The notes under the pieces were generated by a model. That model searched no databases, had not been told where the DNA came from, and saw nothing but the letters and a program-made list of their open reading frames with translations. A stretch of 64,000 nucleotides of DNA from Effrenium voratum. Taxonomy: Eukaryota; Sar; Dinophyceae; Suessiales; Symbiodiniaceae. The stretch lies in contig CAUJNA010002157.1 in the NCBI GenBank assembly GCA_963377175.1, positions 480,899 through 544,898 on the forward strand. Direction: 5' to 3'. Each line of letters begins with the position of its first letter. Position 1 is the first letter of the stretch. The position numbers were made by a program, and so were the translations under genes. Below, piece by piece: positions 17,001-62,836 of the stretch.

Positions 17001-20000
17001 TAGAGATAGCCTGATAAACAAGAGAGCAATTCACACATTCAGGGGACGCCATTCAGGTTTTCCGCACAACTAGTTTTCCAGTGTTCTGTCCCCCCAAAAC
17101 AAAACGCGGGTGGAACACACCCAATGGCGTACCAATATGGCTGTGGCAAAAAAATAGGTAGCCAAAACGGAACCCTGGCAAATGGAAACATGGACTAAAA
17201 CCTGCGGTCCATTTCCTGTTGGTTTAATTTTGACCCATACCCATTTAATCATAGCTGATAACAGGCATGCTACTCACGATCTGCCAGGCTGAATAGGGGT
17301 CTAGGAGAAACAACAACTTCCCCATCCGCTTTTGATTTGGTCGTTATTCACCCAGTCCAATTTGTTCGGTCACTTGGGGGCCGAGGGGTCCACGTGCCTC
17401 GTCCAGGACCAGGATCCGGGGCTTGCAGATCACGGCGCGAGCGATGCTCAGGCGCTGCCTGGCTCGTTTGGCCTCATAGAGGATGCGTCCGTTTCATTTC
17501 CCGTTGCATGCAACTGTCCCAACATCTTGATTGCTGTTGACCCCCCTGCAAAAAGTTTAACTTGTTGGAGGTTTCGTGGAAAACACCTTTATTTTCCAAA
17601 CACTTAAAGTCTGAAGATCCAACCCAATAGCCATCAAGACATGGGTACCCTCAAAAATAACATGTCCCAAAGCAACCAACAAAGAGTAGCCTGATGTACC
17701 CTGCCCCACACAAACCTTAAAAATAACAGTTCTAGATTAATTTCCCTCAAACAGACATCACTGAAACAAAAACAAACACAACACATTCTCAGAAAATATC
17801 CCCCAAAAGCAACTAAAACAAACACCCTTACACGAACCTGCCAACCCCCCCCCCCCCCTCCCCCACAAACAAAAACAAAACAACAACACGCAGCAAACAA
17901 CAAACTCCATCAAAAACGGAGCCTGGGACTCATCAACCCTTAGTTTATTAGTACGGGGTTGTCCTCTTTAGAGGGGGAACCTTCACCTTTAGGGGAAACA
18001 CCATCCTTGCATGAACCTTGCAATTGGGTTCAAAGACAGCAAACAAATACACCAGCGCCACCTCACAAACAGCAAAGTTCGAAAGCTCCTATAGATTCAA
18101 GGGTTACCGGTTTGGGGCCCAAAAGGAAACAACAAACCGTCCAAGTGCGCTGCTCGCACATTTTCACGCTTGAACAGCCACACTGCGGATGCAACGGATG
18201 TAAAACCCCAAACTGACCGATCAAATTCTTCACCCCCCTCTGCGTGTTAAAGGGGCCTTTCACAAAGCAGCCAAACAGAAACACAACAGAGGGAGAAGGT
18301 CATGGGGAACCGTTGTATACATGCAAACCATGACAGTTGCGCTTTTAGCGCCACTGCCAAGTAGATTGGTAACCGCTGCTGTCATTCCATCCTCCCCAAC
18401 CGGACCAGTTCTGCCAGCTGCCTTGGCTCCAATGCTCACCCTCGCGGGCGGCGGGAGCACTTTGATCGGCATAGCGAGCGGCATTGCGAGCGAGGTGCTT
18501 GGTGCTCTCGTTCTTTGAAAACTCAACTGAGTTTCGGGCATATCGCTCGTTCTGGCTGAATATCCAGTCCATTTCGTGGCGGAGGTCCTCGAGGGAATTG
18601 CTTCGCAAATGGATGATGCCATTCCAACATCCAATGCTGCGAGGCTTGTCCTGCTCGGAGACAACATTCACAAAAGCCCGTGGACTGTATGGCATTCCCT
18701 GAAACATGATGATCCAACGGGAACTGAGTGCATCCTGCAATTCGCTGGGCAAAAACTCCACCTCCGTCTTTATGTACGCGAGCCTTGCGATTCGCGACTC
18801 AGAAGTTGATCCAAGGCCAACTCCAAGAGTGCGCTGGGCTTGCGACTGCTTTGGAGCAGCCAAGACGAGGTTTGCACACAACTCCATGCGGAGTATATCC
18901 GCATCCCGACGGCCCACTTCAAGCATACGAACCCTGTATTGAAGGTCGAGTTCATAGCGATCAAGTAGAGAGTGGTAGCCGTTCTTCAGGGCGGACTTGT
19001 GCTTCTTCCGGGCCTCCTGAATGACAGCACTGTCCGGGGAGTTCAGGCCACGAAGGATGCTACTCCGATCCTCCTCGCGGAGGTCAAAAGTTCCCACGGA
19101 TGCCAAAACCTGGGCTGTGACATGGGTGCTGAGGCCCATCTTCTTCAGCAAATTGGAACGCTGCACAAGGTAATTCTTTTGCTGCTCTCTCAACAGGCGA
19201 GGATTGAGGGGTGACAACTGCCCACATGATGTGCAGTGGACCTGCCCCTCGAACACACTGTTGTTGCAAACCGGGCACGTGGCGACATTCAGCTCAACGT
19301 TCTCCATTGGATTGAAAGTCTTCTGTCTCTTCGCTTCCCCTTGCGGGGCGCGAGGAGACGCCACATTGGTGCGGGTTGTAGCAATGCGCTCCAGTGCTGT
19401 GGACCGATCATCAACCACGGCTTGGTCACGCTTCATCCCCTGGGGTTCATCCTCAGTCGCCTCAGCTGGTGCACCTGCATCCGATTGCTCGGAGCGAGTG
19501 TACCATACATCGCCATTTGTAGCGTCCAATACAGAAATAATCGTGTAGTTGGGCACCTTGTCGCGCGTGAGGACGCCATCGCTCTCTGTCTTGAAAAAGC
19601 AAAGCCCTGCGCGAATGGCCATCCTGAGGTCGATCTGTATTTCCAAGGGCTTGTTAGCGCGTACACCTGAGATGTAATTTTCGTTCGTGCTCGGAATGTC
19701 AGCGAAGAAAACGTGAGGTCTGCCTGTCTCGTGCTGGTCACCTCCTCCTGGAAGCAGTCCGTTTCGCATAATGTTGGCGAAGTTCCGCTTATCGGTGCGA
19801 TGATAGAGCACCGTAGGAGGGTTGCTGCAGACGTTCCAGCCAGACCAGCGCCCGAGGTCCGTCCCCGGGTTCACGTACCACTCCTTCGCGATGCCGGAGT
19901 CGTCAATTTGGAGCCAGTCCTCATGGCCTTGGGAGGCCTTGATCTTGAAAATCCAATGAGAACAGGGGACGTCTCCGCACCGGCTTGCGTCCGGGCAACC

Positions 20001-23000
20001 AAGCGCAATGAACCTCTGCTTTTTGTCGAGCTTGAAGATGTCCATGATGCTTTGAATATTCCATGGAATGGGATGTCGCAGCTCCTTGCGAAGCGCGAGT
20101 CCCAAATCTTCAAGGTCCATGTAGCCGTCCTCATCCATCACGTACCCACATCCTTCTGTCCCTCGACCACGGAGGATCTTCGAGATGCACGTCAGGGAGC
20201 TGTGGTACTCATTGCTGATTCTCCTGACGGAAGGGTCGTAATCAAAAGAAGGCTGCTTGATGATCTCAAGTCGCTTGGGGCCCTCACCATAGTCAACATA
20301 CTTCACGCCGTCATGGATGCTATAAACCCAGCAATCGTAGTGGCCCCCAGTCACGTTCCTCCCGTAGGAGTCGAGTGGTACCGGCCTGCTCGTCGCCTCG
20401 TCCCTCTGTGCCACCGCAGCCGCCTTTGCACCGGCTTGCGCCGGGCGAACACTTTCGGAAACATCAGCACCGGAAGGCTCACCTGAAGTTGCAAATTCGG
20501 CTGGATCGACAGGGGCGAAATCGAGGGGCTGCCGGAACTCCACTTCTTCACGGGTGAAAGGGAGCCCGATCATCTCTGACAATGAAACGCCGCACTTCGT
20601 TAGCGTTTCCTTGCAGTACGCGAGAACCTCAACGTTGACTGTGCAATCCTCTTGGTGGCGCACCTCGAGCACATCGATCGGACGCATTGTGCAATCATGC
20701 GAACGTGTCAGCTCGGCTACGCTGCCCATTGCGGGGCGCAAGATGGAAAGCATGTACAACATATGATGGGTTCCGCGCATAAACTGGACGGTCTTCGTGA
20801 TATTGTCGTCACTGAAGCACATATGATACCTGTCCAGCAAATCGATGGTCTCGACGAAGGGTGTAGCATCAACATATACAAACATATTGTTGGGGTCGCC
20901 GATGATGTAATCCCGGACTTCCGTCATGAAACGGTCCCAAATCATAGAGAAGCCGTAGAGGTAGCTCTTCGCGCCGGTCATGACTCCAAGGCATGCGCAG
21001 CCCTTGCGGGCCGCGAAATCCCTGGTCCAAGCCAGGTGCCGTCTGGTGTCAGCGAGAAGTTGCTCGGCGTCTCCGATGGGGGTGTCGTAAGGATATGTAC
21101 CAGTGGGCTCGAGGCCGTCCTTCCCAACGAGCTCGTTGCCATTCCAGTAAATCATCGGAATGATGGTGGCTGCTGGGTAGTCGGTACGCACCTCGTCGAT
21201 GAGGGCGGCCAACCGCTTGCACAGCTGTTGTAAGCCCTTGCCCCAAAGCATTTCAGACCTCCATGCACCGACACGCGCCGGGCGAGAGGCATCCAAACGC
21301 TCCGCAAAGTCGTACTTGCGAAGCTTGCGCTTCTTGCCCGAAACCATGGACAGTCCTGAATCAGCGACAGTCACATAGATAAGGAGGTCGCGGTCTGGTA
21401 CACGTGGGGCCTGCAAAACTTTCAAGTACGGTTCGCTTATGGTTAACAGGGGTGTAAGCAATTGCAGGTAGTGCGGTTGGTCCTGCACCCATGTATGAAT
21501 AAGCGACTGTGCAGAGGTCGTCTCGAGGAGGCCCTTGACCGTGGCGGCGAGGTTAGCGTCGTATTTGCCGTTCGTGCATACCGAAGTGGTAGCGACATTC
21601 TCCATCCATCTCCTCCATGCCGGATCGCAATCCCTCGCGGGATGCGCCATAGCCGTCGCGCTGCTCATTGCGAAGAAGATGCAGCACAATCACTCGAAAG
21701 CAACGGCTGCATGGTGGCATGTTCAGAAAATGCATTGTGAACGGCATCGGTGTAAACATACGTGTATCCCTCGGCTTCCTTCAAATGCGTACCACGGCTT
21801 TCATCATGCTCGTGAGAACCATCACACTTGAAGTACTCAACCACGGAAATAGTGGGCATATTACTGGCAACGACCCACTGCTTTTTCATAGGTTTTCCAT
21901 TTCTCCCTTTAATGCCGATTTTGCAACCATGGAATTCGTACTTGTTCATCTTGTACTTAGTCAAGAAACTCCGTAGTTCGGGCCATTTCCAATAACGACA
22001 CGCCTTGGGAAGTTCAAAGGCAACTCTAACGTCATCAGAATAGACATCATTGAGAATGCGTTTGAACCCTCTCAGCAGTGATCGGAATTGCTTGATGTGA
22101 CCCTCGATCTTGGCAGCACCTTTGGGAGTTTGCTGGTTGACATAACCCCACGGGCATCCTCCAGTGCAAGGCAATGAAACGTAGAACATTATTGCACCCT
22201 TAGGATTCTTGCTCCTAAATTCGGCAATTTCATGGACTAACCACTGCCTGCATGTATCAGAGCACCCGTCTTCGGTTTCAGTTACCCGAATGACACGACA
22301 TCCCTTTGAAGAGTCTCTTGATTCGCCCAACCGTGAGGTCGTCGAACAACAGAACTCAATAAGGAGGCGCTTGGGCTGAGCGTTGCATAGCGCGGCGATC
22401 TGCCCCCCCTGATCACTAACTTCTCCGGCCTTGGCGCACGGGGAGAGCAGCAAACTGGTGGCACAGGCTCGCGCCTGGCGATTGGGGGAGATACCGATCA
22501 GCTCAAGTGCATGGTGCCACACTGGGGTGCTGTCAAACGCCTTGGTCAAGATGTCTGCAGCTTGGAGGGTAGTGTCAACATTGATTAACTCGAACTGCCT
22601 ATTCACGAATTGCTCCTGGAGCCATCTAAAGCTAATGCGTTGGGTCCTATCCGTGTGCCTTAGCTTCTGTGAGTGTCCCTGCTGCAGGATAGTGATCGTG
22701 GCCTGATTGTCTTCCATCAGCTTAACTTTCCACTTATCACTGAGATGCACAGTTAGGGCATTGATATTCGCTACACTTGTGCCCGCATCAACATTTCCGT
22801 ACCGAATTTCATCCAACTCGGGGTCGATGCGAGCAACAATGCCATCGGGCACATCAAGGGAGGCCTTTCCTGCCTTTTGAGCATACCCATGTGCTTCTTT
22901 CCCAAACAGGCTGAGCTGGCAGAAAAGCGACAGCGTCGGCAATCCCTCTGCTCTGAGCGCCTGATTCGCAGCGATGACCTCGGCTTCAGTCGAGCTTGTT

Positions 23001-26000
23001 GCGGTCGCTGTCTGCTTCCTACTGAAGGCATTCAGTGGGTAGTACGTGTTTGGCCCTACCAGGATCATGGTGCAACCAGTTGTACTATGCGAGTCGTATT
23101 CGCCTGCCCAATCCGCGTCAGCGAACAACCACAGCCTACAATCAGAGAACTTATCCCCGATAAAACCTCGCATCTTTAGGTCCTTCGAACAGTGTATGTA
23201 AGACACAAGCCGATGTAGAGCGCTGTCGCACTCAGTGGACCATTTACTCACGCGCGAGGCAAGGCTTTGCGTGGCTCTTAGCAGGTCATACCTAGCCATG
23301 CGGGCTGCGAATAGAATCTTCATTAGTACTTTTGCAGCGATCGTTTGAAGCCTGCCCTTTGGCTCCTCTTCATTTACGACAGGTCTCGCGACCTTCGAAC
23401 CAATGAATGGAGTGCTAACCTTACTCAGCGAAGAAACGTTCACCTTGGCAAGTTCGCAATATGCGTCAACGCATGACTTGAGGAAATCAGACATGTCGTA
23501 CTCAACAATGTTGACTTCTTTAGTCATACAACCAACAGGTTTATCGCATATCGTTTCGGGTCCTTTGAACTTCGAAACCTTGACTTCTTTCTTTGCCGCG
23601 GTTTTGTCTCTCATTGATCCAGGCTTAGAGGGCAATGCACATTGCAGAGCTGCTTCCTGATTCTCACCGTAGGAAAACACAGTACGTCCGGTCCACCACG
23701 CGGTGTCCGCAGAAATGCGATCACTTGCATGACGCGACCACTCATCGCAAATTGGACTTGATTTGGATTGATCTTTGATTGTCACACGCTGGGGGTCGAG
23801 GCTGCAAGCGAATGCACTCATTTGCTCCTTAGGACGGAAAAGGCACTTTCTGGGCTGCAAGTGATAGCGTGTCCACGTTTTCGTGTTCTCATCATGCTCC
23901 CAGTAGTCCTCAGTCCTTCTTTGAGAGCAAACACCCGCGTGTTGCGCAGAACCCTCAAACACGTGATTGAAAGGGTGTTCCTCTTTAGACAATCTGACAT
24001 TGTTCTTTTCGATGTGATGACACCCAAAGTATCTACCGAATGGCTCGGGCGCGTCGATCTCGACAACCTTCCCGATCAGTTCCCATCCCTTATCAAGGCT
24101 ACCGGCGGGTCCTGCAAGCTTGAAGTCATCAACATATACGACGAGCAGCAGGTCGAGTTCCGGATGATGGAAAATGGATGTCCATATTTCGGGCAACACT
24201 CTTACAAAGCCTTGCTTGCTTAGGGCATCTTCGAGGTGCTTTTCCCAAAGCCCCCCTGAATCGGGATGTCCGTACAAGGCTAGCACAAGTGGAACAATGG
24301 GGTCAATGTATTGTTTGCTCCAATGGCTGGGCCATCTGTTCTTGGGCAATCTAAGCCATGTGGGAACGCCTTTGAACAGGGCTTGGATGTAGGCTTGCTT
24401 CGCATCGGCTTGCGCCTTGCGGTAGCCGGGCTGCGACCCGAAAGCGTCGAGGATTTTGGCTGCCTCCATTGACGCTGGGCTGGACCCTAGCTCCGCAAAT
24501 AATGCTGCAACAGAGTTTTCATCGTAAACATTGTTCCCTTGGAAAACGGTCCTTCCTTTGAATTTCTTGTTGGGATCATCATCAGGAAGCTCGCTACCCT
24601 TCTCGTAACAAGCCTCGAAAATCCTTCCAATGTGGACCTTTTCCCCTTTGTTCTGGGCTTCTCTGATGACGCGCCTACACTCGTTTACTCTGAACTCGTC
24701 CCAAGTGCCTTTCTTTCGAAGGTTTTCCCATTCCTTGTCAAGAGCAGCTTGGGCCTTTGGCGTATTGGCTACTTCGGCTTTTGGCACAAGCCTTGCAACG
24801 ACTGCACTGAACAGTTCAAGAGCAACATCAAATTCAACCTTCTTGATTCGCTCTTTGACCAACTCACGCAATTGCGGGCGATGCGGCTCCTTCGATGACT
24901 TGTCACGTTCCGGAAGAACGGACATCGCAGGCGCGTGCCGGATCACAGGCAATGTCGGCTCGCCCTCGCGGGCGGCGCTGGTCGGCTTTGCACTCGATGC
25001 GGCTTCGGGGTGCTCGGATCTGGCCTCCGAAGAGACTGCTGTCTCAAGCACTGCCTTCTTGGCATCTGCACGGAGCTGATCTTCATACTGCTGGGTTAGG
25101 GCCTTTCGGTCCTGGCTGCCGAGCATGACCCACATGTCAGACGGGATATCGGGAGGCCTTTTGGATCCGGCCTTCCTACGGACGAGCCGAACCCCATCCC
25201 ACACATAGCCATCAGGTACTGGTGACCCATCAGGCATTATGCTCGGGTCGAATGCACCGCCTTTGTCGGGCACGACAGGCTTGGTCTTCGCTTCGGATTT
25301 CTCCGATGCGGCGGGTTCCTCGATGTGGGCTTGCCCACGTTCCAACGGCACAGGGATCATCTCGTGTCCTAGCACTGGCAACAGGTGGATGAGATGCAGG
25401 GTCTTTCAACAACCTCATCGGGAAGATGAACTCATCAGTCGGAAGCTCAATGCGCTTTGTTCGCTGTACCGTGAGGGACGCATGTTCGATATGGTAATCG
25501 AGCCCTTCTAGTTTTGCAACGAGGAACTCACCCTTCCATGCGAACCCGGGCTGAATATGGTACCCGAGAAACACGCCTTCATTCGATGTTGGCGAAGTCT
25601 TGCCTGCCTGATTGTCAGCTCGTGCAGGGTTGTTCCAGAACAGTATCTTTGCTCCGAAAGGTATCTCAGCTTCATCAAAGGTCTTGTTAAACCTGAGGTA
25701 CCATGGCGAATCATTTCCATTCAACTGTGGCAGGATGTTGGTCGCAACTGCATTGTGCTGGATGGCAAATGGCCACATCGACAGTGGGAACCCTGACTGG
25801 ACAAGGTTCGCACGTGCTCCCTCCAACAGATGTCTGATTTCCCTTTCCACGAAAGATTTGGAAGAATCAACATATTCAATGGAGGTCTGATGACGGTACC
25901 CCAACTGCTCTATTGCGGCTTTCAATTCCCGGGAGTTATCAGTGTAGAGAACCTCAACCTCATCCCTACCGGAAATGAAATGCTGGATCCCTGCAACGGA

Positions 26001-29000
26001 TTGCTCCGTGCTTTTGCTGGTCGACGGGTAAACGTACCTGAACTGCGTATGCACGTCCTTGATCACAAGAGCACACCATTCACCTTTTATGCCTTGCTCG
26101 ATGTTGGCCTTGAGAATCACATGATCAGCAATGATGTGATCTCCAAACGCTTTCGTCTCGAGCCTTCCCTGCCCGCCTTTCGATCTTGCATATGGGGCAA
26201 GCATCTTGGCACGTTGGCAAGTGCGGCAAAAGGGATTCTTCGGATAGTGTGCAAACAAGTGCTCTTTGGTACCTGCTTCGGCAACCAGATCTTGCTCTTT
26301 GCGGGATCTCACAAACCGCTCAACTTCGTCGTCGGGATCATCACCTTCGTCGATGCCTTCGTCATGAACTGGCGCAGGCGCTGGCTTTGATGCTGCTACT
26401 GCACTCAACGATGGCTCAGCTTCACAACTAGAGTCCATGTATGGCACATGACCGTCAACCTTGAGCTGGATCAGAGCACCGTCAGGGCGAACCATGGTTG
26501 GTGCCTTCCCGGATTCCCAATGAAAGGAATATCCTTGATCCAGACACTTCACACCCAGCGACAGCACTGCGGGAGAACTCTCGAGGATGTAAGGCTGAGC
26601 AGGCTCGCACAATGCATCGACATTGATGTCGGCGATCTCGGAAGCAGTGATGTTTCCGTTTGCAGTCACAAGGCGAATAGGCTGCGGGGCCTGTTTTCGG
26701 ATTGCCTTGGACGCATTCCTCAGTGCAGCCTTGCTGATGAGGTCCTGCTCACTACCGGAATCAATGAGCCACACATCCTTTCCCTTTGGGGCAGGGGTGG
26801 CTGCCCTTGGCGCTTCGACATCCTTGCGAACATCGTGAGGCGGCATGGCAACTCTCAGGCACTCATCACACGATAGGCTTGAGATGGAATCAGATTCCAC
26901 ATCGCACATGAAACCGCAAGCGGGCTGGGCTCCATTCTCCATGGCTTTGACTACGGCATTCAACTGATTCGCGGCCTTGCGCGCTGCCTTGTTAGTCCCT
27001 TTGGTCGGCCTGGGGCAGTCCTTGGCACTTGGAAACATCCTATTGTACTGACGTTCCTCATACTCAAGCTTGAAACCATCGCCTTCGGCGGGGATTTCAT
27101 GAACATGAGCATTGGTGTCGAATGACACTCCAATTGGGTTGATCGGCTTTGCGAACATGGCGTACCTGGTGCAGACTGCAGCGGCTTTGGCCTTGGGCTT
27201 AGGCTTAGGTGAATTTGCACGCTTCTTAGCCGCAGGATTTGCATTGGCCTCGCTGCTCGATGCCGCGGCGGCAGATTTGCCGCCCGTGGAGGCATGGCTA
27301 AACTTGCATTTATCACCTCTCGTGCACTTCCCTTGGGCAAAGAAAGAACACGGTGCTTTCTCTCCTTTACCGCCTTTGGGGGAACTTGGCCTGCCGCGGG
27401 TCGCGGAGCGTCCTCGCGGCTCCTTGCGGTGCGCGTAAGGGCAGTTTGCCCCCCTCGTGCACGAGCCCTTCTGGAAGTCAAAACAGTACTTCTCCTCGGT
27501 GTCCTTCGGCTTAGGTGCGCTCTTTTTCTTGGGGTCCCTCTTTTCAGGAGCGGCAGCACCAGCCTTGGGCGTCGGGGCTTTACTGGCATTGACCTTGGAC
27601 ACGCGCTCTCGGTTCTCGCGGAGCCTATCCCTCTCGATTAGATCCCTCATGCAACGCATTAGGAAATCGTACGATTTATTGGGATCATCATCACGGCAAC
27701 GATCATATGTGTCGATGTCGTACCGCAACAGATGGCAGCTTCTCACTTGGCGAAGCAAGATGTCTTTCAACACCTTTTCTTCCGGCGGCCTTTTCATGCC
27801 GGCGATCACGGAATCCCAAGCATTCAGGAAACGCTTGAGATCGATGATTCCTTCGCCGTGTCGCGAGACACGCAACAGGTCCTCCAAGGAGTAGAGGTTT
27901 CCGGCTTCTTCACTGGTCTTGAAATATTGGTCAAACATAAACAAGACCTGCCTTCCTCTCATGGCCTTTCCCTCCTTGGCACATTCTTCCTTTGCTGTTA
28001 GGATTCGCTGAGCCAGATCGCCTTTCGCTGAACGCGTGAGCGCTGCGAGAATCTTCGTGTCTAGGGTCACGAATTTTCCCGGTTCGCCGAGCTCCTCCAA
28101 CAGCTTCTTCTTGTCCTCGCGATCAGACCAGACTTCCATGATCCAAGGCCAAGCCTCGTCTGGACGGTCAGATGCGGCGCGGACATCCTCACGAACCGAT
28201 GTTTTCCATTCACGGTACGTTTCAGGAGTTGGCATCTCCTTGAATCGCAACGTCTCGCTTTCGCGGGTTCTGGGCTTTTCATCGTTCGTGTGGCCTTTTA
28301 CTAACTTCATCAACATTTTGGCGAATGCTTCTTGGCCGAGGTTAGGCCCAAGGCCATCACCTTCGTCTTCATCACCATCGCCATCGCCATCATCATCAGG
28401 TGGCGGACCGCCGGGAGGCTTGCCACCCTGCTTGCGGTCAGTTGACATTGGCCCCTGAGAGAATTGCAGGGGTGGGACCGGTGCACTTGTTTTCACCGGG
28501 GATCGGCTGCTACCTGATGGCTTTTCAGCTGGTCCTTGCGGATCGCGAGCATCTGCGGGCAGTGCTTCGCATTCGGCAGTTGGAATCACGCTAGGGGTAT
28601 ATTCATCCCCGTAACCGTCATAGGTAACAAGCGACCTCAACTTTTCCTTTGCATATTGAAACGGATGGGTCAACGGGTCCAACATTGACCTTTGGGACCG
28701 AGCTGACTTCATGTCGTCGGTCATCAACTCTGGTGAATCCTCTCGGGTATCACCTACCCCTTTGGGCTTCGATCCATCCTCGCGGAGGTCGTGTTGCTTC
28801 TGATACTTCTTCAGCTCATCAAGCTCGTCCTGCAGAAGCCCGTTTTGGTGTGCCATCATGTCAACCGTTCTGGCGTGTGTAGCCTCGACACGGGCTGTGT
28901 CATCGGCATGCTTGGCAGCTTGCTCATGGAGGAGCTGCTGGGCTTCAGCCAGGGTGGATTCGATGGCTTGCCTAAACTCAGTTGTTTTGCGTCCCATTTC

Positions 29001-32000
29001 CGCTTCATGCAATGCTTGGGCATTTTCCTCACACACTTGGCTTATCCTAGCTTCAGCGAAGTTCACTTCTTGCATGAACTCATCGCTCACTCGCTGTTCG
29101 TATTCACGAATCCTATGCGACTGGGCTTGCACACATTCAGCGTAGTGTGCATGCAGCTGATTCTGTGCGGCACGGAGCTCCTCACGGTTTTCCGCTTGCA
29201 AATGCGTTACAGCTGCTTGATGCAGGGCTTCGGCTTCAGACCTAATGGCTGCATCATTCCCAAAAGCAAAGATTGCGGTATTGTACAGTTGAAGGGAATT
29301 CATCAGGGTGCGGTTGTATTGCGCATTAGCGCTTGATGCGAACATTCGCACACCGCCGCCGGTGGCGTTGCCGGAGCTAGCTCCGGCAGCATCCACAGGC
29401 ATGCTGGATCCATCAACTGGCACAAGGGAACCGTCCATTGCTTAGAGCTAGGGGCCTACGGCTGATAACCTATAGATTCAAGGGTTACCGGTTTGGGGCC
29501 CAAAAGGAAACAACAAACCGTCCAAGTGCGCTGCTCGCACATTTACACGCTTGAACAGCCACACTGCGGATGCAACGGATGTAAAACCCCAAACTGACCG
29601 ATCAAATTCTTCAGCTCCCAGGGATCTACTTATTTGAATCGGTGTCTGACATGCGTAGTGACAAGTTGAGCAGCCCTATCAATCTCAAGCAACCACACCT
29701 TGTGACCTTGGAATATGTCAGACATTGTGCAAGCACTTCGACATAGGACTCTCCCAGACTCGCATGATGTTGTGTTCGCTACAGTCGAGTTTTTTTTGTA
29801 GGAAAACCAGGACAACACAGCGAACCAAGTAAGGCTCCTGGTTTGAGATATGTAAATCGGAACGTCGGCGCAACGAAACTGAGCGCCCCGCTTTTGCCCA
29901 CCAGATATCTGAGCTCCTTGGTCGCCTCACGACAGCTTGGACGCATGTGCACTCAGAACGGACCACAACTGGCAAGCCAAACGATCAAAAGATCTGACTT
30001 TGGACACAGCTGCACGGGGGGGGGGGGGGGGGCAATGAGCAACGGGCCGGAGACGGGAACCTTCATCATTGATCATGAGTGAATTTGGCAACCCAAGCCC
30101 TTTTGAGGGCAACTCTTCATACCTACTTGCAGTTCAATGAATCCTTATTGACCCAATATTTAATCTTTAAAACCGCCGAAGAGATACGCTCCCAACCAAT
30201 AGCATGGAACTTGACAGGGGGATCCACGATAAAGGAACAATGGTCACCAGAGTGTTGGGTAAGCTCCTGGAAACGAGGGTAAGCTCCTGTACCCCTGCGA
30301 CATTCTTTCCTTGCCAACCGCAAGGTAGCATTGGAACCCTTTTGGGGTTGACCATTCAGCGGGAGCCCCTACCCTGAATTTGACGATGTGGAGCAAACCA
30401 GCACACCACGCGCCGAGAAAGTCTGGGTGCCGTGCCCACGTAGGTCTCATAGCCTGCTGGAAAGCGGAGGATGAAGTCATGGGCTGCTGCCATACGTGTC
30501 GCGGCCTCACTGTCGGGCGTCCGGCCGAGGGTCAAAACAAAGGCACATGGTGCATTTAAGTTCCCCTCCATTCCGGAGGGGAGACTCGGCACATCCAAGT
30601 AATTGAACACAAGCAATCTATCGGCAAGTACTCCCAGTTGAGTATATGGAATCGAGAATGTATTTTTATCATAGCTAATAACAGGCATGCTGCTGACGAT
30701 TTGCCAGGCTGAATAGGGATCTAGGAGAAACAACAACTTACCCATCCGCTGAGGGGTGTTTTGGTCCATTTGGGTGTTTTGGTTCTGAGGGTACCCTTGT
30801 CAGGAGCGTTTGTTCAAGGGGAAGGAACACCACCATCTTTAGGGTCCATAATTTGATACATGTCCGATTACACCTAGCGAATGATTCAAGTAGGCCACAC
30901 GACTGAAAGCACTCTTTTGCTCTCAATGCGCCTCGATCTCTTCGTCGGACACATCCCTGCCAAGGCCAACCAGCGGAAATGGTTGTGTACACGTGGACAT
31001 CATTTGGGTGCGGATTCATGTCCACCAACCACTGTTGAGGTGGTTTATGAAATTCATAGCCACATGTGCTTAGACGTGATCTGGATGGTGTTTAACAAGA
31101 ACCCTTGAAGGCCCGCGATTCGATCAATAATAGATTCTTTGGACCTAGTGTCAGGCTGGTCAGTGGTCTGTGCTGACTGTTTCACCATGGAATTTCTGCA
31201 CCTTCCTGATTTTGCGACCACAATGAAACAGCTTGCCAAGCACTCATGGTTCTCCTAGACCTTTTTCAGAGTCTGCGGTTCAGACTTTAGCCTCGTCGCA
31301 GTGAGTTAACGAGGCTTGGAGCTTGACTTCACCAAGTGTGAGGCCGAGCCCTGCGACTGAGGCTGTCCTGCTGTGCCTTATCTAGGACTAGAGTGACTTG
31401 AGTCTGGGCATAGAATAGGTTTGATTCCAAGGGTTGATTTCAAATGTTCCAAGTTCCAGATTTGATTCCGTGTTCCAGGTTTGCTTCCAAGGTCAAACGG
31501 GATGAAGGGTCTTTTGCACAGTGGCGTTTCAGCTGACACCCCTTGGGCAGTTCCCCAGCGAACTCTTCGCAAGTTCCCAACGGGCGACACTGGGATGGCT
31601 TCAGCAACCTGGCAAGTGAATGAGCAGCTCGGCGAGCCAGCACAATTGAGCAGAATCCACCTGTGCTCATCTGACATACGGGGTGCCCATTTCTCATGAG
31701 CGAGCTGCTCCTTCCTATGATTGATCCGAACAAGCTCTGCGCCTGAATTGAATTCACCCAATATCTGACCTACCGGTGGGACTGGGCCACGTCCCCTGGT
31801 TGGCTCCCACGAATGAGCATGCGCAGTGCATGCGCGTGCAACCTGGCTCTGAACCGAGAGTTGTTGAGAAACTATGGGAGATGTCCATTGGAACCGGATT
31901 TTCTCTTTGGTAGCTCAAAGGGTAGGCTCCATTCATGGATGTCTCAAAGCCCAAAGGCTTGGCGACGGGCTCAGAGCCGTGCGCAGCCACGCGTCCCATG

Positions 32001-62762: not shown

Positions 62763-62836
62763 AGGGCCCAGAAGGACTTGAACCTTCGACCTCCCGTTGG
62801 GTAGAGACGGGCGCGCTGCCATTGCGCCATAGCCCC
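62763..62836 (-). tRNA. tRNA-like gene, anticodon not assigned (possible pseudogene)
   Basis: The minus strand folds as a cloverleaf: acceptor GGGGCTA with TGGGCCC (one mismatch), D-stem GCGC/GCGC, anticodon stem CCCGT/ACGGG, and T-arm GAAGG-TTCAAGT-CCTTC with a good B box. The anticodon loop has nine bases (CTCTACCCA) instead of seven, so the anticodon is ambiguous and the gene may be degenerate or a tRNA-derived repeat. Confidence 0.6.

Follow-up and report, generated by a model that had tools for sequence, protein, structure and literature searches.

A Tpt1/KptA-family domain with an altered tetrad, kept by selection in a copia-like retrotransposon of Effrenium voratum

A 64,000-nucleotide stretch of the genome of the dinoflagellate Effrenium voratum (assembly GCA_963377175.1, contig CAUJNA010002157.1, positions 480,899 to 544,898 of the forward strand; hereafter the window, in whose numbering all coordinates are given) contains a copia-like long terminal repeat (LTR) retrotransposon whose third open reading frame (ORF3) carries a domain of the Tpt1/KptA family of RNA 2'-phosphotransferases. 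Strong purifying selection maintains the domain, the element is present as many near-identical intact copies, and Tpt1 domains occur in three element lineages of this one genome, two of them resembling long interspersed nuclear elements (LINEs) and the third being the copia-like element.

Identification of the Tpt1/KptA domain

ORF3 and its domain are placed as follows.

18345..21689, minus strand: ORF3, 1114 codons from TTG, a single open frame
19563..20186, minus strand: Tpt1/KptA domain, ORF3 residues 502-709, based on PF01885, hhalign and the ratio of nonsynonymous to synonymous substitution rates (dN/dS)

An initial annotation, made from the letters alone, had proposed a Tpt1/KptA-like domain in a retrotransposon ORF and had named two outcomes that would speak against it, the lack of a significant profile match and a domain confined to one copy and decayed elsewhere. 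In a Pfam scan the PF01885 (PTS_2-RNA) profile matches ORF3 residues 502-709 significantly (expectation value, E, 2.5e-16; 60.7 bits, cut-off 26), with an alignment that runs over profile positions 10-176 of 177 and places the motifs of the RNA lobe and the NAD lobe in order, and it is the sole Pfam family above cut-off in ORF3. The two-lobe motifs quoted in the annotation are present. The proposal is further borne out by profile-profile comparison (hhalign), in which the ORF3 family aligns with a profile of host-like and LINE Tpt1 sequences over 170 columns spanning both lobes (probability 95.6, E 1.1e-8). Matches to solved structures are weak: the top three found by phmmer are Tpt1 proteins (E 8e-4, 5e-3 and 6e-3), followed by an unrelated dioxygenase, and a profile search has a Tpt1 at the top (E 0.002), ahead of an unrelated protein (E 0.02). 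No relatives of the ORF3 domain were found in the viral contigs searched, where the host-like Tpt1 gave a single weak hit over its residues 21-65, a stretch that lies mostly ahead of its Tpt1 domain; a search of genome_contigs gave none.

Copies and selection

Across 1.156 Gb of genome in 3699 contigs, the best 41 of 759 candidate places for ORF3 were scored, the window among them. Each of the 41 spans residues 1-1114 without a stop, at 95-100% identity, and 38 have exactly 1114 open codons; among the places scored, the domain is neither single-copy nor decayed. Because the best candidates were the ones scored, these counts show that many intact copies exist and not necessarily that all are intact.

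Selection was measured on the window and six copies picked because their frames reach 1114 codons or more; a seventh fetched copy (L038), whose longest frame is a remnant of ORF1, was left out of both the selection and the tetrad counts. Between the window and the six copies the dN/dS of the Tpt1 domain is 0.031-0.047 (upper bounds by bootstrap, 0.053-0.102), and in the comparison with the most distant copy (L036) synonymous divergence reaches about 2, yet 86% of residues are unchanged. The seven sequences form 21 pairs, of which 3 are saturated; in each of the 18 defined pairs the domain has the lowest dN/dS when ORF3 is divided into three parts, or is tied for it at two decimals. The C-terminal part is looser, with dN/dS up to 0.74 in one pair.

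An altered catalytic tetrad beside NAD-contacting positions retained by alignment

The residues that correspond to the Tpt1 active site are encoded at the following positions.

20163..20171, minus strand: tetrad positions 1 and 2; Arg507 retained, and in place of His either Gly508 or Arg509 (Gly508 then being an insertion)
19938..19940, minus strand: tetrad position 3; Lys584 for Arg (IKASQGH)
19794..19802, minus strand: His-x-Thr motif binding nicotinamide adenine dinucleotide (NAD+); His630-Arg-Thr632, canonical Tpt1 HGT
19719..19721, minus strand: tetrad position 4; Arg657 kept (GRPHVFFA)

In place of Arg-His-Arg-Arg, the tetrad reads Arg-(Gly or Arg)-Lys-Arg in the window and in all six copies. 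The tetrad His is lost in every alignment, two of which set Gly508 against it and two Arg509. The initial annotation had stated that the tetrad His is replaced by Gly; the loss of His stands, while the identity of the replacement depends on the alignment. That annotation recognised the changed tetrad and overlooked the Arg-to-Lys change at the third position, and its doubt about plain catalysis was justified. The canonical R-H-R-R is present in six of six canonical proteins (from Acetobacter, Pseudomonas, Pontibacillus, Haloprofundus, E. coli and an Erwinia phage), which were chosen among matches to the LINE Tpt1. The His and Thr of the NAD-binding HGT are kept and its Gly has become Arg. Arg507, Gly508, Arg509, Lys584, His630, Thr632, Arg657 and Arg677 are identical in all seven sequences, with silent variation among the codons for Arg507 (CGT/CGA/AGA), Gly508 (GGT/GGA), Lys584 (AAG/AAA) and Arg657 (AGA/CGA). 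The sequences P0001, P0002 and P0003 match the window at the tetrad places, and P0011 has HCT for HRT.

By alignment, His630, Thr632 and Arg677 correspond to RslTpt1 His99, Thr101 and Arg137, and the equivalents of RslTpt1 Arg16, His99, Thr101 and Arg137 and of CthTpt1 Arg121 are all kept in ORF3. His99/Thr101 and Arg137 of RslTpt1, as well as Arg121 of CthTpt1, serve NAD+ (PMC6333775). In RslTpt1 the R64A mutation slows step 2 of the reaction, removal of the 2'-phosphate, by 210-fold and step 1, ADP-ribosylation of that phosphate, by 3-fold; a 3-fold slowing of step 2 is also seen with H17A, and R16A slows both steps (PMC6333775). The positions changed in ORF3 lean towards step 2, since the effects of R64A and H17A fall mainly there. 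The alanine mutant of RslTpt1 His138 builds up the ADP-ribosylated intermediate (PMC6333775), and ORF3 has Ala at this position; the substitution says little because the host-like and LINE Tpt1 domains also lack His there.

Tpt1 domains in two LINE-like lineages of the same genome

A genome search with PF01885 gave 558 candidates, the best 150 of which were scored and part of these assigned to classes. All 150 pass the PF01885 cut-off, 3 of them with one internal stop, and the assigned rows make up the window family, further repeat classes and one gene that is likely the host's own. The likely host Tpt1 gene (L001/P0018), seen with 1.5 kb of flank, has 277 codons and an intact tetrad.

Class A (L031 and L042, G000:C1668:29000-47999) has a 2062-codon frame containing Tpt1 (155.4 bits, tetrad intact), followed after one in-frame stop codon by a frame with Exo_endo_phos and RVT_1, a LINE layout seen in one copy; judging from the sequence, the single stop between the two frames could be read through. 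All 29 class A loci fetched (L002-L030) align to the class A frame. The motifs were printed for Arg-His in 25 of 29, for the RA of RATQGH in 28, and for HGT and RQHVHFS in all 29, the unprinted instances (Arg-His in 4, RATQGH in 1) arising because the script demanded fixed neighbours. Domain dN/dS is 0.04-0.06 between diverged class A copies and 0.09-0.12 between close ones. Three further Tpt1 domains, L045, L046 and L047, group with class A (support 82/77). L045 and L046 have the tetrad R-H-K-R, with Arg changed to Lys as in the window and His kept, and a mutual dN/dS of 0.16; L047 has R-H-R-R, and HAT for HGT. The 2062-codon frame also shows membrane-like segments and, by eye, an OTU-like motif that has no Pfam match.

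Class B (L043 and L032, G000:C1241:36000-54999) consists of an endonuclease and RVT_1 frame, an RNase H-like frame, and a 1958-codon frame that combines a subthreshold AAA_30 match (helicase-like by eye) with Tpt1 (64.5 bits, tetrad intact). RVT_1 (46.5 and 34.8 bits) and Exo_endo_phos (26.1 and 25.6 bits) all score above cut-off in the one copy taken for each of classes A and B. A second class B copy, on C416, aligns on both sides of a 1 kb interval that lay outside the fetched stretches: its RNase H end matches at about 94% until 1 kb short of the helicase frame, and the match resumes at that frame and continues through the Tpt1 frame. Because C416 matches along them, the class B frames very likely share one element; the match ends inside the RNase H frame, as in 5'-truncated LINE copies. 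Between the two class B copies dN/dS is 0.22, a weaker sign of constraint.

In a tree of 16 sequences, whose deep order is without firm support and whose long branches are flagged, three groups stand apart: the window family, class A together with L045, L046 and L047, and class B, which sits beside the host-like Tpt1 (89/89). Because the tree sets the three apart, three separate captures are likely, though not proved. With these parallels in two other retrotransposon lineages and the strong selection on the domain, the finding is stronger than the initial annotation had stated.

Proposed mechanism and alternatives

By analogy with the characterised enzymes, we propose, with a probability of about 0.4, that the domain binds NAD+ and carries out step 1 on RNA 2'-phosphates, with step 2 slow or absent, in the service of element RNA. 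The domain would bind NAD+ plus a 2'-phosphorylated RNA end or junction and transfer ADP-ribose onto the 2'-phosphate, the removal being finished slowly or never. A slow step 2 is proposed because the position equivalent to RslTpt1 Arg64 is altered and R64A mainly hurts this step. The site of action would be the element's own RNA-protein particle, and the targets would be ends or scars from RNA cleavage and ligation, carried either by element RNA or by a cleaved tRNA primer; ADP-ribose may protect or mark these ends, so that the RNA would survive and could be reverse transcribed. LINEs do not prime from tRNA, so a benefit shared by the three lineages is easier to picture for RNA damage than for tRNA priming, and the intact-tetrad LINE Tpt1 domains suggest that the common benefit is the handling of 2'-phosphate RNA damage and not tRNA priming alone. 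Yeast cells that lack Tpt1 cleave and degrade mRNA carrying a 2'-phosphate, and this phosphate brings Xrn1 to a halt (PMC6456296). The most extended form of the proposal, in which three lineages captured Tpt1 independently and the copia copy became a step-arrested RNA 2'-phosphate ADP-ribosyltransferase shielding element RNA or primer ends from an RNA-cleaving or RNA-ligating host response, is unlikely to hold in all its parts.

Several observations weigh against our proposal. The canonical His of VHL/VHI, present in the six canonical proteins, is Phe or Tyr in the ORF3 family. The human TRPT1 mutants R40A, H41A, R86A and R150A fail to ADP-ribosylate 5'-phosphate RNA (PMC6582358), and because these four alanine mutants are inactive, the tetrad changes combined may abolish catalysis; moreover Lys is not Ala, and the R64A data are transferable to ORF3 solely by analogy. 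As to family membership, the match of the ORF3 family to a class B Tpt1 profile is weak (probability 12.7), and the NCBIfam equivalog models for RNA 2'-phosphotransferase give ORF3 at best E 2.5e-9 and 37.2 bits against a cut-off of 239, a cut-off that the host-like Tpt1 of this genome likewise falls below with the same model (89.6 bits). AlphaFold2 models of the Tpt1 domain (14 sequences; mean predicted local distance difference test, pLDDT, 42.0) and of the whole ORF3 (20 sequences; mean pLDDT 31.9) are unusable, probably because the alignments are shallow. The intactness of the copies is biased upward, those scored or fetched being the best ones, and several window-family rows of the PF01885 search have shorter open frames (e.g. 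652, 604 and 412 codons).

The loss of two of the four tetrad residues, together with the inactivity of the human tetrad mutants in the 5'-phosphate assay (PMC6582358), could also mean that catalysis is lost and that the domain reads RNA ends, binding 2'-phosphorylated, cyclic-phosphate-derived or ADP-ribosylated ends (or NAD+) and helping the particle to select or hold RNA. Strong conservation also fits a binding role. However, the aligned NAD+ contacts (His-x-Thr, Arg657 and Arg677) are kept, Lys preserves the charge of the Arg that it replaces, and the same Arg-to-Lys change is found in the His-keeping domains L045 and L046; we consider loss of catalysis possible but doubtful. These two domains are also what would be expected if Lys can stand in for Arg in a complete but slower 2'-phosphotransferase, with Arg509 taking the place of His, that heals element RNA or a half-tRNA primer. 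Two of the four alignments put Arg509 opposite His, and Arg507-Gly508-Arg509 is invariant in the window and six copies. The candidate primer-binding site next to the 5' LTR, GGTTATCAGCC, also bears on this, as its complement, GGCTGATAACC, reads as an anticodon stem-loop, and the site is identical in two of the three stretches fetched (L054 and L055), the third (L056) having no LTR match. Drosophila copia primes from a tRNA half at a comparable site. On the other hand, a 17-base stem-loop with full stem pairing assumed, the one exact pattern searched for the primer tRNA, has no match in the genome; ARAGORN finds one tRNA in the window, tRNA-Val (tac) at 62763-62836 on the minus strand, and none in 56 fetched loci. 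With R-H-R-R kept by each of the six canonical proteins, which come from bacteria, archaea and a phage, and the tetrad reported to be essential in vivo and in vitro (PMC6333775), full phosphotransferase activity seems to us rather unlikely.

A different substrate, such as protein or 5'-phosphate RNA or DNA ends, would make the domain an ADP-ribosyltransferase for capping or counter-defence. Tpt1 homologues accept 5'-phosphate RNA and DNA for ADP-ribosylation (PMC6582358), and ADP-ribosyltransferases are relatives of the NAD lobe (PMC6333775), but the 5'-phosphate activity of human TRPT1 requires each tetrad residue (PMC6582358), which leaves this idea improbable. With 22-26% identity the domain is distant from the other Tpt1 classes, which might hint at chance similarity or at a decayed passenger without function; this we reject, as very improbable in the face of the PF01885 match, the intact state of all 41 places scored and dN/dS near 0.04.

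Relation to known systems

The ORF3 domain shares with Tpt1/KptA/TRPT1 (PF01885) the profile, the order of motifs in both lobes, the NAD-contacting His-x-Thr and the first and fourth tetrad Arg, and differs in lacking the tetrad His, in Lys for the third Arg, HRT for HGT and HVFF for HVHL, and in its setting within a retrotransposon ORF, where an N-terminal region precedes it and a zinc-ribbon-like region follows. KptA has been found in jumbo phages, Bodo saltans virus, sawfly baculoviruses and a few positive-strand RNA viruses (PMC9503650). There too a mobile parasite has its own RNA 2'-phosphate enzyme, for which a role in RNA repair has been proposed, but the carriers are phages and viral polyproteins, and the words retrotransposon, transposon and retroelement occur 0 times in that text (PMC9503650).

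Enzyme capture by retrotransposons is known from Symbiodinium, in which LINE and DIRS elements captured DNA methyltransferase (DNMT) and Copia elements have no DNMT domain (PMC5890265). The likeness is that one kind of enzyme was captured repeatedly by several lineages and that LINE ORF1 carries the enzyme, and the difference is that a DNA methyltransferase was taken up there and an RNA-repair enzyme here (PMC5890265), which extends recurrent capture from DNA methylation to RNA repair. Non-LTR retrotransposons with an SF1 helicase (PMC6338049) resemble class B in its helicase-like region, a subthreshold Pfam match, whereas class B joins this region to Tpt1; that paper, which deals with retrotransposon accessory domains, contains 0 mentions of Tpt1 or ADP-ribos. 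Tpt1 in a retrotransposon was not found in the titles and abstract openings of the open-licence papers listed, which is no proof of novelty.

Tpt1 is widespread in organisms without a known need for it, and its role there is an open puzzle (PMC6333775, PMC6582358). A retrotransposon Tpt1 under selection makes the puzzle testable, as a question of which step in copying RNA to DNA needs a 2'-phosphate enzyme, and the intact-tetrad LINE copies set beside the changed-tetrad copia copy offer a comparison of full with possibly partial activity. The captures suggest that RNA repair matters to the copying of these elements.

The host element

The LTR element spans 18090-29613 on the minus strand with its frames in the order ORF1, ORF2, ORF3. 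Its remaining features are these.

29614..29618: target-site duplication, 5' side, GGAGC
29471..29613, minus strand: 5' LTR, 143 bases, TG...TA
29460..29470, minus strand: candidate primer-binding site, abutting the 5' LTR
25230..29438, minus strand: ORF1, Gag-like; two CCCH zinc fingers, followed by a protease and an integrase read by eye
21665..25381, minus strand: ORF2, copia-type reverse transcriptase, subthreshold; YVDD and RNase H motifs by eye
20283..21689, minus strand: ORF3 N-terminal region, perhaps SGNH/GDSL hydrolase-like, subthreshold
19218..19280, minus strand: zinc-ribbon-like CxxC pair, ORF3 residues 804-824, subthreshold
18233..18243, minus strand: polypurine tract, GCAGAGGGGGG, preceding the 3' LTR
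18090..18232, minus strand: 3' LTR, differing from the 5' LTR at 1 of 143 bases
18085..18089: target-site duplication, 3' side, GGAGC

The copia-like character given in the initial annotation is supported. Like Ty1/copia, the element has short LTRs, a 5-base target duplication, Gag, protease and integrase before reverse transcriptase and RNase H (partly by eye), and a candidate internal-tRNA primer site; unlike Ty1/copia, it has a third ORF with Tpt1, and its zinc fingers are CCCH, those of Ty1/copia usually being CCHC. Judged by the near-identity of its LTRs, the element appears to be recently active. A 21-mer resembling a spliced leader is absent from the window at up to 3 mismatches, and its 15-base end from 56 fetched loci, a result without diagnostic value. 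The zinc fingers of ORF1 match zf-CCCH (Pfam, E 8.2e-10), the aspartic protease is read by eye from a DSGS motif, and the integrase region, likewise read by eye, has no Pfam match in the ORF scan. The RVT_2 match of ORF2 (E 4.8e-4, 20.2 bits) lies under the Pfam cut-off of 31.6. The C-terminal part of ORF2 (21665-22800, minus strand) recalls by eye a cytosine methyltransferase (FCCSTTSRLGE, SLPCTGGCPWG), for which the Pfam scan of ORF2 shows no match.

The ORF2 stop and an in-frame ATG of ORF3 (21666-21668) overlap as ATGA. Overlaps of this type couple termination to re-initiation in other systems, and by analogy the arrangement suggests coupled translation of ORF2 and ORF3. On either side of the Tpt1 domain, the subthreshold ORF3 matches are to Lipase_GDSL_2 in the N-terminal region (E 0.13, 13.2 bits, cut-off 32.9) and to Zn_ribbon_3 at residues 804-824 (E 0.24, 11.4 bits, cut-off 27). 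Outside the element, an 87-base direct repeat, 92% alike, flanks it at 17244-17330 and 30664-30750 of the window, perhaps an older repeat that received the insertion of the element.

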